DNA from: Agrococcus sp. ProA11
GTDB taxonomy: Bacteria > Actinomycetota > Actinomycetes > Actinomycetales > Microbacteriaceae
Assembly: GCF_039880525.1 (NCBI RefSeq)
Contig: NZ_CP156989.1
Location: forward strand, 1,426,001-1,490,000
Reading direction: 5' to 3'
Length of the DNA stretch: 64,000 nt
Shown: one piece after another, positions 30,708-36,030 of the stretch
Numbering within the stretch: position 1 is the stretch's first letter
Layout: each line of letters opens with the position of its first letter
The notes under the pieces: model-generated
What the model was told of the DNA's origin: nothing
Database searches by the model: none
What the model saw: only the letters and a program-made list of their open reading frames with translations
Translations under genes and position numbers: made by a program

Positions 30708-32882
30708 ATGGATCTCGCAGCACGGATCGGCGCGCGCGGCGCCGAAGCCTCGAAGGCGATCGAGCGCTCGATCCACCGCTTGGCGAAGCCGGCCGCCATC
30801 GCGCTCGCCCCGGTGCTGATGCGACAGGCGAAGCAGGTGCAGCAGGGCCTCGTGTGGCTGCCGGAGCCGACTGGCGCGAGGCACGGCACGATAGACGCCC
30901 CCGACGGCAGCGGCGCGCCGTTGCGCCTGCTGGCCATCGGCGACTCGACCGCCACCGGCGTGGGCGCTGCACGGCTCGAGGATGGCCTGGTGCTGCAGAC
31001 CGCGAACCGTCTTGCCGTGAGCGAGCGACGCGGCGTCGAGTGGCGCATCGTCGGCCTCGAGGGCTCGAGCGCCGCGCAGGTGCTGCGCGACCAGCTGCCG
31101 AAGGTCGAGGGCGAGTGGGATGCGATCCTGCTGCTGGTCGGGGCCAATGACGCCCTGCAGCTCGTCGGCCGGTCGGCGTTCGAGCGGACCGTTTGCGCGC
31201 TGCTGGACGGACTCGGCGCGCACCTCGCGCCCGGCGGCGTCATCGGGGTGACCGGCACGCCGCAGATCGACACGTTCATCTGGCTGCCGCAGCCCATCCG
31301 CTCACTGATCGGCGGGCATGCGCGCACCCTCGACGATGTGCAGCAGCGCCTCGCCGCGGCCGACCCCCGTGTCATCCACCTGCCGACGCCGGCGATCGTC
31401 GAGCCCGAGCAGCATGCGGCCGACGGCTTCCACCCCTCCGCCGCCGGCTACCGGCTCTGGTCGAGCATCGTCGCGCCGCGCGTCGCCGCAGCGCTCCATG
31501 GCCGCGCCTCGGCGGTGCCCGTCCGTCGCGGCATCGTGCCGCCGTATCTGCTCGAACGGCTCGCGGCCGCCTCGATACCTTCCGCGTCGATCATCGCCGA
31601 GCGCACGCTCGGGCTCGATCGCGGCATCCGCGGCGAGCGCCACCTGCATGCCGCACCGCATGCGCGACTGATGCCCGACGCACCCGCGCGCATCCCGGGC
31701 GAGCGCCCGGCCCCGCACCGCATCGTGAGCGACGCCAGGGGCACCACGACCCTGCCGGGCGAGCTCGTGCGAGCCGAGGGCGCCGACGTGACGGGCGATG
31801 CCGCGGCGGACCAGGCCTTCGACGGCCTCGGCGCCAGTTGGTCGATGCTCATGGAGGCGTTCGGGCGCGACTCGCTCGACGGCGGCGGGATGCCGCTGCG
31901 CGCCACGGTGCACTACGGCGAGCAGTACGCGAACGCATTCTGGGACGGCAGCCGCATGGTCTTCGGCGACGGAGACGGCAAGATCTTCGCGGGCTTCACC
32001 GCTGCCGTCGACGTGATCGGCCACGAGCTGGGCCACGGAATCATCGCGTCGACCGCCGACCTCGTCTACCGCGATCAGTCCGGTGCGGTCAACGAGTCGA
32101 TTGCCGACGTGCTCGGATCGCTCGTGAAGCAGCACGCGCTCGGTCAGACCGCCAATGAGGCCGACTGGCTCATCGGCTCCGGCGTCTTCACCGACCGCGT
32201 CACCGGGAAGGCGCTGCGCTCCATGGCTGCGCCCGGCACCGCGTACGACGACGCTGCGCTCGGCAAGGACCCGCAGCCGGCGCACATGCGCGACTTCGTC
32301 GTCACCGGCGACGACCTCGGCGGCGTGCACATCAACTCGGGCATCCCCAACAAAGCCTTCCACCTCGTCGCCACCGCCATCGGCGGCAGGGCCTGGGAGG
32401 CGGCGGGGCAGATCTGGATGGATGCGCTCACCAGCGGCCTCTCGGCAAATGCGGACTTCACTGCGTTCGCGGCCGCGACCGAGGCAGCATCCGTCGCCCG
32501 CTTCGGCGACGACGCGCCGGAGACGCGCGCCGTGCGGGCGGCTTGGAGCGCAGTGGGGGTGACGGAGGAGAAGCCGGGAACGACCGCACCGGCGGACGAC
32601 GCCGTCAGGTTGGCGCGCACCGGTGGCATGCTCGGGCAGACGCAGGCCGCCGTGCTCGAGCTGCAGGTGATCCCCGGCGACGATCGGGAGCAGCTCGACA
32701 CGCTCGTCGCCTCCGGGGTGCTCGAGCAGCTCGAGGAGCAGACGCTGCCGGATGCACCGCTGTGGCGCGTGACGGTCGAGACGAAGTGCGACGTCACGGT
32801 GGCCGAGCCGCTGCTGCCCGGCGAGGTGCTCGCGCTCTTCCGCCGCCTGCTCGAGCTCGGCGACGAGCCGCCCCGCGCCTGA
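30708..32882 (+). CDS. Three-part fusion: SGNH hydrolase + protealysin-like M4 metalloprotease + emfourin-like inhibitor domain
   Basis: A single uninterrupted 724-residue frame, ATG preceded by GGAGGGAGC. Residues ~70-260 are an SGNH/GDSL hydrolase: LLAIGDSTATGVG (Ser80), LLVGANDALQ (Asn147) and DGFHPSAAGY (Asp239, His242). Residues ~270-320 match a protealysin-type propeptide with PPYLL at 278-282. Residues ~330-625 are a thermolysin-like M4 domain: VIGHELGHGI (His439, Glu440, His443), NESIADVLGSLV (Glu ligand) and GGVHINSGIPNKAFHL (catalytic His). Residues ~632-718 (AVRLARTGGMLGQTQAAVLE ... WRVTVETKCDVTV) resemble emfourin, the protealysin inhibitor usually encoded by a separate adjacent gene. 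No signal peptide is obvious. The lipase/esterase substrate and protease target are unknown; autoproteolysis could release the parts. Confidence 0.85.
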   Translation: MDLAARIGARGAEASKAIERSIHRLAKPAAIALAPVLMRQAKQVQQGLVWLPEPTGARHGTIDAPDGSGAPLRLLAIGDSTATGVGAARLEDGLVLQTANRLAVSERRGVEWRIVGLEGSSAAQVLRDQLPKVEGEWDAILLLVGANDALQLVGRSAFERTVCALLDGLGAHLAPGGVIGVTGTPQIDTFIWLPQPIRSLIGGHARTLDDVQQRLAAADPRVIHLPTPAIVEPEQHAADGFHPSAAGYRLWSSIVAPRVAAALHGRASAVPVRRGIVPPYLLERLAAASIPSASIIAERTLGLDRGIRGERHLHAAPHARLMPDAPARIPGERPAPHRIVSDARGTTTLPGELVRAEGADVTGDAAADQAFDGLGASWSMLMEAFGRDSLDGGGMPLRATVHYGEQYANAFWDGSRMVFGDGDGKIFAGFTAAVDVIGHELGHGIIASTADLVYRDQSGAVNESIADVLGSLVKQHALGQTANEADWLIGSGVFTDRVTGKALRSMAAPGTAYDDAALGKDPQPAHMRDFVVTGDDLGGVHINSGIPNKAFHLVATAIGGRAWEAAGQIWMDALTSGLSANADFTAFAAATEAASVARFGDDAPETRAVRAAWSAVGVTEEKPGTTAPADDAVRLARTGGMLGQTQAAVLELQVIPGDDREQLDTLVASGVLEQLEEQTLPDAPLWRVTVETKCDVTVAEPLLPGEVLALFRRLLELGDEPPRA

Positions 32883-32913
32883 CGCGGCGCGGCTCTCGCG
32901 CCCGCAGGCAGCG

Positions 32914-32971
32914 ACGCGTGTCAGGTTGTTGCACTTCCTCAGCGCTGAAACAGCAACAACTCGACACGCGT
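32914..32971 (+). repeat. Left palindromic end repeat
   Basis: CGCGTGTCAGGTTGTTGC (32915-32932), 20-base loop, GCAACAACTCGACACGCG (32953-32970): the arms match at 16 of 18 positions. The loop itself contains the small palindrome CAGCGCTG. Confidence 0.75.
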
Positions 32972-33048
32972 GGCCTCGGATGCGCGGCGGCGTGCGAGCG
33001 CTGTGGAGAGTGGCGGCGGGCGCGCGGCGGCCGTGCCAGGGTGCGGCC

Positions 33049-33975
33049 GTGGTCGACGATCTGCCGGCGGCACTGCCGGGCACGGGGTTCAGCTTCCGCG
33101 CGGGGCTCGAGCACGGGCTCAGCCCGGGCAGGCTGCGCGGCCGTGCGTTCGTGGCGCCGTTCCGCGGCGTGCGCACGCTCGAGCCGCCGGACACGCTGAG
33201 CGATCGGGCGATCGCGTTCGCTCCGCTGCTGCGGCCCTGGCAGTGCGTCGGCGGGGTCTCGGCGCTCGCGCTCCTCGGTCTGCCTGTCCCCTGGCGACTG
33301 GCGCGGCACGCCGGCGTCGAGATCGTGTCGGTGAAGGGCCGCGGCCACCCGCAGCGCTCGGGCGTGCAGGCGCAGCGGGTCGCCGAGGCGGTGTTCGAAA
33401 CCTGCGACGTGGCTGGCGTTCGCGTGGCGTCGCCGGCACTGGCGCTCGCGTGCATGGCCACGCGGTGCACGGTGCACGAGCTCGTCCGGATCGGCGACGC
33501 CATCGTCGCGGCCGCCGACAACTACCCCGGCCGACGGCTGCCCGGGCCGATCGCGAGCTTCGACGCGCTGCAGGACATCACCGAGCGATGGGCAGGCAGG
33601 CCGGGTGCGGCGGCGCTGCGCGAGGCCGTGCCGCGCATCCGGCCGCGCGTGGAGTCGCCGCGTGAGACCGACATGCGACTGCTCATCACGGATGCCGGGA
33701 TGCCCGAACCCGAGGTGCAGGTCGAGGTCTTCGATCCCGAGACCGGGCGTCGCCTCGGCCGCGCCGATCTGCTGCATCGGGCGGCTCGCGTGGTCGAGGA
33801 GTACGAGGGCGACGGGCACCGGGAGAAGGCACAGTGGGATCGCGACATCCAGAAGTACCGCGACTTCGAGCGCATCGGGCTGCACGTCGTGCGCGCGACG
33901 AACCGCGACTTCGTGCCGTCGCCGCAGCGCTGGCTCGCCGACCTCGCAGCTGTGCTCCGCCGCCGCACCCCGTAG
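33049..33975 (+). CDS. AbiEi-like antitoxin/DUF559-like nuclease-fold protein
   Basis: A 308-residue protein from a GTG (VVDDLPAALPGTGFSF). Residues ~15-110 resemble the AbiEi-type antitoxin N-terminus (LEHGLSPGRLRGRAFVAPFR, CVGGVSALALLGLPVPW). The C-terminal ~75 resemble a DUF559/Vsr-type PD-(D/E)xK fold: GRADLLHRAARVVEEYEGDG with Asp240 and Glu251/Glu253 as candidate catalytic residues, then REKAQWDRDIQKYRDFERIG and LHVVRATNRDF. No AbiEii nucleotidyltransferase toxin is adjacent, so it is not a complete type IV toxin-antitoxin pair. It sits alone between two inverted palindromic repeats. An ATG at 32926 lies inside the left repeat and is rejected as start. Confidence 0.62.
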   Translation: MVDDLPAALPGTGFSFRAGLEHGLSPGRLRGRAFVAPFRGVRTLEPPDTLSDRAIAFAPLLRPWQCVGGVSALALLGLPVPWRLARHAGVEIVSVKGRGHPQRSGVQAQRVAEAVFETCDVAGVRVASPALALACMATRCTVHELVRIGDAIVAAADNYPGRRLPGPIASFDALQDITERWAGRPGAAALREAVPRIRPRVESPRETDMRLLITDAGMPEPEVQVEVFDPETGRRLGRADLLHRAARVVEEYEGDGHREKAQWDRDIQKYRDFERIGLHVVRATNRDFVPSPQRWLADLAAVLRRRTP

Positions 33976-34041
33976 CCCCCGCCCTCGCCCCCTCGCCCCC
34001 CTCACCCCTTCCCTCCCCCGCCCCGCGCAAGGGCCGGGGCT

Positions 34042-34102
34042 CGCGTGTCAGCTTGTTGCTGTTTCTGCGGCGCGGCGGTGCAACAACCTGACACGCGTCG
34101 CT
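34042..34102 (-). repeat. Right palindromic end repeat (inverted relative to the left)
   Basis: CGCGTGTCAGCTTGTTGC (34042-34059), 20-base loop, GCAACAACCTGACACGCG (34080-34097): 17 of 18 arm positions match. Read on the minus strand its outer arm is identical to the left repeat over 25 bases. Confidence 0.75.
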
Positions 34103-34146
34103 CGTCGCGGGGCGCGGCGGGGTGGGGCGGGGCGGGCGTGGCGCGC

Positions 34147-34178
34147 GGGGCGGCGGGCGGCGGGCGGGCGGGCGGGCG
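34147..34178 (+). repeat. GGGC/GGCG-run, potential G-quadruplex
   Basis: Consecutive GGGC and GGC units just beyond the 3' end of the TPP-enzyme gene. It may form a G-quadruplex or be a slippage-prone simple repeat; no function is shown. Confidence 0.4.
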
Positions 34179-34179
34179 G

Positions 34180-36030
34180 TCAGCGGGCGGCGGCCGCCCG
34201 CATCGCGGCCTCGCGGATCTCGACCATGTAGGGCGCGACGACCTGCTGGCTGACGCGGCAGTCGGCGACGAAGACGCCGTCGGCGCCCGATGCGAGCCAG
34301 GTCTCGAGCTGCTGCAGATCGTCGAGCGACTCGATGACGGCAGCGGATGCCCCCATGCCGCGCGCGATCGCCGCGAAGTCGATCTGCTCGATGAGCATCG
34401 GCTCCTCGGCGACACCGCGCACCGCGTACTGGTGCACCTCGGCGCCGTAGGCCGCATCATTGACGAGCACGACGACGCCGCGGCGCACGGTGCGCAGCAC
34501 GGTGTCCAGGTCGGCGAGGCCCATGAGCGCTCCGCCATCGCCGGAGACGAGCACGAGGGTCGTGTCCGGCATCGCGACGCCGGCGCCCACGGCGCTCGGC
34601 AGCCCGAGGCCGATGGTCTGGAACGCGGTGCCGACCATCAGCAGGCGCGACGGGTCCGCGACCGACAGGTGGGTTGGCCCCCAGCCGATGAAGTGGCCGC
34701 CGTCCTGCACGATCAGGCGGTCGGCGGGCAGGATGCGCTCGAGCGCGTGGAAGAGGCTGCGGGGGTCGAGCCTGCCGTCGACGGCTGCCCGGTCGCCGGG
34801 CTCGCGCTCGAAGTGGATGCCGGTCACGTCGCCGTAGCCCGCCTCGGCCCAGGCCGCGTCGGCGCGGGCCGCATCGGCCCGAGCCGCGTCAGCGCGGGCC
34901 GCGTCGGCTCCAGCCGCATCGGCCCGATCGCCCGCGCCGTCGCCGACCGCCGACAGCAGCGCCTCGGCCACGAACCGTGCATCGCCGCGCACGAGCTCGT
35001 CGACGCGCGGGTTCGTCGCGGCCGGTTCGAGATCGACCTGGATCACGCGCGCTGCGTGATCGAAGGCATCGCCGAACCGGGTCTGGAACTGGTTGAGGCT
35101 CGCTCCGACGACCAGCACGACATCCGCGCGCTCGATCGCGGCGGCCGCACGCTCGGAGGCGAAGCCGCCGGTGATGCCGAGGTGGCGTGCGTCGGGCGCG
35201 AAGATGCCGCTGCCGAGCGCGCTCGACGCGGTGCGTGCGCCCAGTCGCTCGGCGAGCGCACGCAGCGCCGTCGCCGCGCCCGCCAGGTGCGCGCCGCGGC
35301 CGGCGATCAGCAGCGGGCGCTCGGCCCGGCGCAGCGTCTGGGCAAGGCTCACCAGCTGGGCCTTGTCGAGGCGCGCGGCCGTCGTGGTCGGCACGGGCAG
35401 GCCCGCGTCGCGCTCACCGTCGCCCTCCAGCGTGGCGTGGCCGATGTCGTACGGGATCGCCAGCACGACGGGCCGGCGATCCGTCGTCGCGATCTCGACG
35501 GCGCGACGGGCCGCGGCGCGGGCGTCGTCACGCCCGACCACGATCGTGGTCGCACCGACCGCGGTCGCGACCGCCGCCTGATCGATGTCCCACGGGCGCG
35601 CGCCCGCGGTCGGCTGATCGCCGACGACGAGCACGAGCGGGATGCGCGCCTGCGCAGCCTCGGCGAGCGACGTGAGCGCGTTGGTGTAGCCGGGGCCGTA
35701 CGTGGTGGAGGCGATCGCGAGGCGGCCGGTCGCGCGGAAGAACGCGTCCGCGGCAGCGACCGTGGCGGTCTCGTGCCGCACGGAGGTCAGCCGCATGGCG
35801 CCGCGCCGCACGACGGCGTCGAGGAACCAGGCGTTGCCGTTGCCCATGAGCGAGAAGACGTCGCTCGCGTGCCGCTCGAGTTCCGCCGCGATGGCGGCCG
35901 AGACGGTCAGCGGCGCGTCGGGCAGGGCGGCGTCCGGCGCGGGCGCGTCGGGCAGCGCCGCATCGGACATGACGGGATCGAGCAGCGCGGCGTCGGGCAT
36001 CGCCGCGCGCGAGGGGGAAGCGTCAGACAT
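34180..36030 (-). CDS. Thiamine-pyrophosphate-dependent enzyme (acetolactate-synthase-like)
   Basis: A 616-residue enzyme with the three POX/AHAS domains. The N-terminal PYR domain has the activating Glu in VRHETATVAAADAFF; the middle domain has GRGAHLAGAATALRALAERL; the PP domain has VSGDGGALMGLADLDTVLRT, ending in VNDAAYGAE (GDG...N Mg/TPP motif). Two low-complexity segments are unusual: an N-terminal DAALPDAP-type repeat (residues ~12-40) and ADAAR pentapeptide repeats (~365-400) between middle and PP domains. The closest family is acetolactate synthase large-subunit-like; no small subunit is adjacent, so the true substrate is open. ATG 36030 follows CCGGAGTGCCCC. Confidence 0.85.
   Translation of the reverse strand: MSDASPSRAAMPDAALLDPVMSDAALPDAPAPDAALPDAPLTVSAAIAAELERHASDVFSLMGNGNAWFLDAVVRRGAMRLTSVRHETATVAAADAFFRATGRLAIASTTYGPGYTNALTSLAEAAQARIPLVLVVGDQPTAGARPWDIDQAAVATAVGATTIVVGRDDARAAARRAVEIATTDRRPVVLAIPYDIGHATLEGDGERDAGLPVPTTTAARLDKAQLVSLAQTLRRAERPLLIAGRGAHLAGAATALRALAERLGARTASSALGSGIFAPDARHLGITGGFASERAAAAIERADVVLVVGASLNQFQTRFGDAFDHAARVIQVDLEPAATNPRVDELVRGDARFVAEALLSAVGDGAGDRADAAGADAARADAARADAARADAAWAEAGYGDVTGIHFEREPGDRAAVDGRLDPRSLFHALERILPADRLIVQDGGHFIGWGPTHLSVADPSRLLMVGTAFQTIGLGLPSAVGAGVAMPDTTLVLVSGDGGALMGLADLDTVLRTVRRGVVVLVNDAAYGAEVHQYAVRGVAEEPMLIEQIDFAAIARGMGASAAVIESLDDLQQLETWLASGADGVFVADCRVSQQVVAPYMVEIREAAMRAAAAR
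34846..34930. repeat. 15-bp tandem repeats inside the TPP-enzyme gene
   Basis: About five copies of GCSTCRGCSCGRGCC-type 15-mers encode ADAAR/ADAAG units. They keep the frame and probably form a flexible or helical linker; such arrays change copy number by slippage. Confidence 0.7.

Follow-up and report, generated by a model that had tools for sequence, protein, structure and literature searches.

In the genome of Agrococcus sp. ProA11 we analysed a stretch of 64,000 nucleotides (the window; contig NZ_CP156989.1, positions 1,426,001 to 1,490,000), in which a single gene for a nuclease-like protein is bracketed by two matching palindromes. Such matched palindromes are characteristic of the gene family to which this gene belongs, and the pattern is class-wide over 107 loci rather than that of the single odd mini-element that an earlier note on this DNA had supposed: a search for palindromes beside related genes found matching flanks in 86 of the 107 family loci, compared with 3 of 567 control genes taken from named relatives. 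The association of palindromes with the family, the dispersal of palindromes and the inversion of the gene are seen directly in the genomes compared. We consider it probable that gene and palindromes form a small selfish element, comprising one nuclease gene with its own recognition palindrome at each end and additional kindred palindromes dispersed elsewhere, and driven by the nuclease.

At the locus itself (Table 1) the outer flanks are identical and inverted over 25 bases, each flank forms a hairpin with arms of 18–19 bases around a 20-base loop, and one gene alone lies between them, all of which bears out the earlier note (it gave the arms as 18 bases). Pairing of the arms leaves one or two mismatches in each palindrome, and RNA folding yields structures more stable than those of shuffled sequences (z of −4.7 for the left and −3.3 for the right palindrome). 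The sequence TGTCAGGTTGTTGC, allowing at most two mismatches, occurs five times in the window against 0.21 matches expected, and none of 100 shuffles reaches five; this excess and the comparison of folding with shuffles rule out chance hairpins. Beside the nuclease gene in the window there is no AbiEii nucleotidyltransferase toxin gene or other toxin partner, again as the note had it. To the left of the nuclease gene stands one whose product has GDSL-lipase and M4-peptidase domains, and to its right, in convergent orientation, one for a thiamine-pyrophosphate (TPP) enzyme.

Homologues of the nuclease gene are present in 173 of the 296 Actinomycetes genomes sampled, with at most seven candidates scored per genome, and in all 24 Agrococcus-genus genomes examined. 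Nine genomes besides that of the window carry an orthologue at 57–69% identity (G and L numbers are our handles for genomes and loci). All nine orthologues have palindromes on both sides, left resembling right, with a sequence unlike that of most other species; G009 and G015 have a common palindrome sequence, and in G004 both gene and palindromes are degenerate. The earlier note had raised the prospect of close relatives that carry the gene at this locus but lack palindromes; what the relatives have are palindromes of other sequence (at L058 the gene is broken and the palindromes are degenerate). On the flank score described below, eight of the ten orthologous loci, the window included, pass, and L056 and L058 fail. 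The best homologues of ten further genomes (about 33–40% identity) mostly have other matched pairs, with L066 and L068 doubtful, and in the window genome all four family genes have their own matching flanks, one of the genes being interrupted by a stop.

Flanks were scored by local alignment of the 450 bases upstream with the 450 bases downstream, and the threshold of 38 corresponds to the 99th percentile among 1740 mismatched pairs of flanks. A first set of 89 loci comprised the fetched homologues and 40 further matches picked down the lists; 87 of these had flanks of at least 200 bases, and L067 and L204, with short flanks, were left out. Flanks scored above the threshold in 69 of the 87 loci, compared with about 1% of mismatched pairs, and 17 of 20 previously unseen genus loci in a second set did likewise. 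The highest values in the cross-locus control come from syntenic loci with an inverted gene, which makes that control conservative. Gene positions for the 567 control genes, as for the setting of palindrome copies, the upstream motifs and the dispersed sites below, were called with a home-made codon-usage program that had been trained on the window genome; the strongest of the three matching controls is a PaaA/PaaC-type gene (L105, 10360-11156, score 84). In 58 of the 69 matching loci the score is above the 95th percentile (32) whichever orientation is aligned, as expected of palindromes, and by a palindrome score of our own both flanks are palindromic in 53 of the 69 and at least one in 62 (median lengths 61 and 56 bp).

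The palindrome is not private to the nuclease gene, since the single-contig genome of 2,665,899 bases contains 15 complete copies. Every copy has two 15-base half-sites with a spacing of exactly 20 bases; across the 30 half-sites GCGTGT and TGTTG are invariant, the three positions that separate these motifs are variable, and the 20 bases in the centre are largely unconstrained. The arms are identical in just 5 of the 15 copies, and two independent half-sites therefore fit better than a hairpin kept for pairing. All copies are intergenic (nine between convergent, six between tandem and none between divergent genes), no T run stands beside any of the 15, and none carries GTAG at its ends, both sides ending in GCG/CGC. 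Four gaps between neighbouring copies are shorter than 6 kb, which was matched in 9 of 20,000 random placements. The close pairs lie near 665.7/668.5, 891.5/896.6, 1458.9/1460.0 and 2451.8/2456.4 kb, and one pair only brackets the nuclease gene. At three or fewer mismatches the palindrome is found in 4 of 398 genomes of the taxonomic family, all of them Agrococcus, with 15 copies here and one or two in the three others.

At least three palindrome types are dispersed in genomes. The type of L059-L061 is matched exactly eight times in G006, five in G007 and four in G013, with two, two and none of these matches flanking a family gene; the other 21 Agrococcus-genus genomes have none. In another genus, the type of L168-L203 occurs in all 12 genomes with 2 to 145 copies, palindromes beside genes included, and the reversed pattern has none. 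Two genomes of that genus, G522 and G596, each hold two gene types, one flanked by GATCATGGAG palindromes and the other by GATCTTGGAG palindromes. Where the surroundings were at hand, 14 of 15 dispersed sites in Agrococcus and all 25 in the other genus are intergenic (the latter 13 tandem, 7 convergent, 2 divergent and 3 with one neighbour unseen). Comparison with relatives also reveals junctions at which a palindrome is missing: in a 19-kb stretch of G542, a genome of the other genus, one palindrome is missing in all eight relatives compared (14 bases in G452 against 168 in G542), and another is missing in G551 and G522 (48 and 54 bases between anchors against 191) and, by alignment, in G596; the third (P1 of L281) has no clean junction. 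G542 (L281-L283) has 100 palindromes and is not among the genomes listed with a family gene, at most seven candidates having been scored per genome; these palindromes are possibly orphan repeats. A different palindrome family, GCAGGCGATC...GATCGCCTGC, stands downstream of the TPP gene in G013, G007 and G006 (L267, L268 and L269), one to several in a row.

Across the 107 loci there are 37 pairs with conserved DNA on both sides of the gene, and the orientation of the gene is the same in 23 pairs and inverted in 14. By our own grouping the inverted pairs represent six loci: the Agrococcus locus between the M4-peptidase and TPP genes (M4-TPP), a second Agrococcus locus (L065, L316, L319 and L321), L168/L200, L172/L177, L181/L183 and L189/L191. 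Only the gene is reversed in L168/L200, L172/L177 and L181/L183, whose neighbouring DNA aligns at 82–92% identity over 0.7–1.1 kb. Synteny breaks inside the palindromes in L168/L200, and each of the four further pairs measured has its breaks in the palindromes or no more than about 130 bases away. At the M4-TPP locus the gene lies on the M4 strand in the window genome and G020 and on the TPP strand in G002, G004, G014 and G016, while G008, G009, G015 and G017 carry the orthologue at other places. The junction is gene-free in twelve genomes, and in G021 another gene occupies it. In a comparison of empty with filled sites, such as the earlier note had proposed, the gene-free junction of G008 holds two palindromes that match those at the G008 gene elsewhere (58-base alignment, score 71), but such cognate palindromes occur in only one of the twelve gene-free genomes, the ten other gene-free loci compared scoring 25 or less against the G008 palindrome. 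Plasmids and phages were rejected as the usual vehicle, as only two homologues (27–29% identity) lie on Arthrobacter replicons filed as plasmids and none in the phage collection. The left neighbour at the window's M4-TPP locus is one 724-amino-acid frame (30708-32882) with domains of three kinds: GDSL lipase, M4 thermolysin-type peptidase and emfourin.

The protein had been read in the earlier note as an AbiEi-like N-terminus joined to a DUF559/Vsr-like C-terminus. Fold comparison sees both halves, AbiEi-like and EDxHD/Vsr-like, and places the catalytic domain nearest to an EDxHD homing endonuclease, but Pfam matches the C-terminus only weakly and below the cut-offs (MTES_1575, E 4e-4; DUF559, E 0.05) and does not detect the AbiEi-like N-terminus. 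Candidate catalytic residues in the nuclease domain are E206, D240, H257 and D266, the motif assignment being our own. The protein has no match in NCBIfam, and Foldseek alone puts Toxoplasma mitoribosomal proteins on top, with TM-scores below 0.3. Of 108 regions of 170 bases upstream of family genes, 90 contain TCCACA on one strand or the other, compared with 5.9 in shuffles, 72 contain TCCACAG, compared with 16 of 793 control genes, and 12 contain TTATCCACA. TCCACAG, which in most family members lies between the upstream palindrome and the start codon, resembles the DnaA box; a link to replication would be a guess.

Table 1. Features of the nuclease locus, in window coordinates.
Feature	Position	Strand	Description
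Left (upstream) palindrome	32910..32974	.	Two GCGTGTC-RRS-TTGTTGC-type half-sites around 20 bases; arms 32914-32932 and 32953-32971, 20-base loop; 1 of 15 genomic copies
CTCTCCACAG	33001..33010	-	DnaA-box-like motif between palindrome and start codon, from sequence; motif enriched in the family
Nuclease gene	33049..33975	+	308 amino acids, GTG start; residues 2-198 AbiEi-like, 203-308 EDxHD/Vsr-like
Right (downstream) palindrome	34039..34102	.	Type as left; arms 34042-34059 and 34080-34097, 20-base loop; outer 25 bases (34078-34102) exact reverse complement of 32910-32934 (25/25)

The protein very likely recognises its own palindromes, and movement driven by the nuclease seems to us reasonably likely. 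In the mechanism that we propose, each arm of about 20 bp would be the site for one AbiEi-like DNA-binding region, and two protomers on one palindrome would bring two EDxHD nuclease domains above its middle, where the nuclease may nick or cut. Repair or recombination with other palindromes could then copy, move or remove palindromes, and at times the gene between them could be inverted, lost or carried along. New DNA-binding specificities and new palindromes may arise jointly, as in pairs of repetitive extragenic palindromes and their enzymes (REP/RAYT). According to PMC7319586, AbiEi and a homologue bind a pair of 23-bp inverted repeats with 3 or 13 bp between them, 49–59 bp in total, and PMC3943268 has I-Bth0305I dimerising on nearly 60 bp. 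The palindromes here measure about 50–70 bp with arms of about 20 bp, and it is from these comparable lengths that we infer two protomers per palindrome.

An alternative in which nothing is mobilised treats the palindromes as operators of a chromosomal regulator, whose AbiEi-like region would repress its own gene from the left palindrome and act at the ends of other genes, the nuclease domain being otherwise employed. AbiEi antitoxins autoregulate through upstream inverted repeats, according to PMC7319586, and the conserved half-sites and free loops of the 15 copies would suit such a role. However, a matching palindrome also stands downstream of the gene, the copies follow gene ends and none lies between divergent genes, and a regulator predicts neither inversion, nor change of place, nor up to 145 lineage-specific copies; we regard this account as unlikely. 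A role in defence or conflict, with the nuclease attacking invading DNA and the palindromes marking self DNA or regulating the gene, appears quite improbable. By fold comparison the nuclease fold is common among restriction enzymes, and two of the homologues, L168 and L198, are recognised by AbiEi models in PADLOC, yet PADLOC gives no match for the window protein or L059, no toxin partner adjoins the gene in the window, and the matched flanks, the inversion and the dispersal would be left unexplained.

Strict homing would make the solitary palindrome an empty site, which is cut and then filled by repair from a palindrome-gene-palindrome copy, and which recombination between the palindromes empties again. 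Its appeal lies in the kinship of the catalytic domain with an EDxHD homing endonuclease, in the existence of solitary palindromes, including those of G008 where relatives have the gene, and in the inversion of the gene between its palindromes. With both flanking palindromes complete, though, self-cutting of the element would be expected, in contrast to usual homing endonucleases, and the restriction of cognate palindromes at the gene-free junction to G008 also speaks against it; we hold strict homing to be decidedly improbable. That ordinary intergenic hairpins or terminators flank the gene by accident is scarcely credible, even with strong hairpins and with all 15 copies in intergenic positions after gene ends. 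No promoter-like or terminator-like consensus site was found in 32800-34250, where a scan for loops of 3–8 bases only gave no T-run terminator-like site, and the family statistics, together with sequences that change and yet stay matched, exclude chance flanking. The T-run scan and the flank statistics refute terminators as a full account, and a terminator effect is possible as a side use of the palindromes. The earlier note had also allowed for genome-wide terminators unrelated to the gene; dispersed copies do exist, but the palindromes are tied to the gene family, and no T-run terminator with a loop of 3–8 bases was found at the locus.

Several observations weigh against a selfish element driven by its nuclease. 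Twenty-one of the 107 loci fail the flank test, and five of the 107 (L320, L322, L324, L326 and L328) show short units repeated in tandem upstream, with the inverse array downstream, in place of single palindromes. Over 1653 pairs the rank correlation of palindrome similarity with protein identity is weak (0.16 for the N-terminal and 0.10 for the C-terminal part), because palindromes are unrelated below about 60% protein identity; above that level they are similar in 15 of 22 pairs (68%). Conserved arms with free loops are also compatible with selection on binding sites or operators. The identities of the gene and of the TPP gene correlate (r of 0.66 over 28 genome pairs, means 66% and 79%), which indicates that the gene is mostly inherited with its genome, and plain inverted-repeat recombination could invert the gene without a nuclease. 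For the two palindromes compared, the extra DNA at the syntenic junctions is longer than the palindrome, so that neither exact insertion boundaries nor target duplications were seen.

The selfish element is best read, by analogy, as REP/RAYT-like and driven by an enzyme unrelated to RAYT. In REP/RAYT systems (REPtron, TIRtron; TnpA-REP), as PMC3733652 and PMC8266576 describe them, palindromes or inverted repeats stand on both sides of an enzyme gene and also lie dispersed between genes, enzyme and repeat co-varying. The single enzyme gene here shares this arrangement, with palindromes on both sides and further copies around the genome. RAYT is an HUH tyrosine transposase, and REPs carry a GTAG (or CGTC) tag at one end. 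In contrast, the enzyme here is an AbiEi-EDxHD nuclease, and the palindromes of 50–70 bp have no GTAG tag. The Y1 transposase model PF01797 (Y1_Tnp) has no match in the window genome, whereas 5 of 14 control genomes match, which rules out RAYT as the enzyme and, for Y1 transposases, upholds the lack of a transposase claimed in the earlier note. With transposase and tag both absent, the element would work like REP/RAYT without being a member; the likeness drawn in the note thus holds well as an analogy, through matched flanks, dispersal, inversion and change of place, but not for the enzyme.

The window protein shares with the EDxHD homing endonuclease I-Bth0305I (3r3p) the catalytic fold and the conserved E, D, H and D residues (letter assignment our own), but the gene, at which neither an intron nor an intein was noticed, lies between two complete palindromes, and the DNA-binding part is AbiEi-like. 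With the AbiEi antitoxin of type IV toxin-antitoxin systems (6y8q) it shares the AbiEi-like fold; it differs in the fused nuclease domain, in having no adjacent AbiEii gene in the window, and in repeats that stand at both gene ends and are dispersed. As to DUF559, MTES_1575 and Vsr-like nucleases, the protein stays below both Pfam cut-offs, and the association with palindromes was not found described in the open full-text literature: among the open full-text matches listed, no title or abstract describes palindromes at DUF559/AbiEi-like genes, subscription papers and preprints lay mostly outside this scope, and an earlier description may exist. To our knowledge no kind of element described so far has this combination of parts, with the reservation that the layout has a known analogue in REP/RAYT.

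The broadest interpretation, which we consider evenly poised, is that of a large unnamed class of selfish elements in Actinomycetes, in which an AbiEi-EDxHD nuclease would recognise, cut and spread its own palindrome and sometimes its own gene. Such a class would parallel REP/RAYT in actinomycetes, its enzyme combining a homing-type nuclease with a DNA-binding region of antitoxin type; new specificities would arise quickly, and the gene would flip between its two palindromes. If true, a family barely described by existing models would be the engine of dispersed palindromes in those Actinomycetes genomes, and a single nuclease could drive a mobile element without a transposase. The family would then offer many natural pairs of a DNA-binding protein and a long palindromic target, and with them a direct route to study the joint change of protein and recognition site. 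The origin of dispersed palindromes in RAYT-free genomes would become testable.
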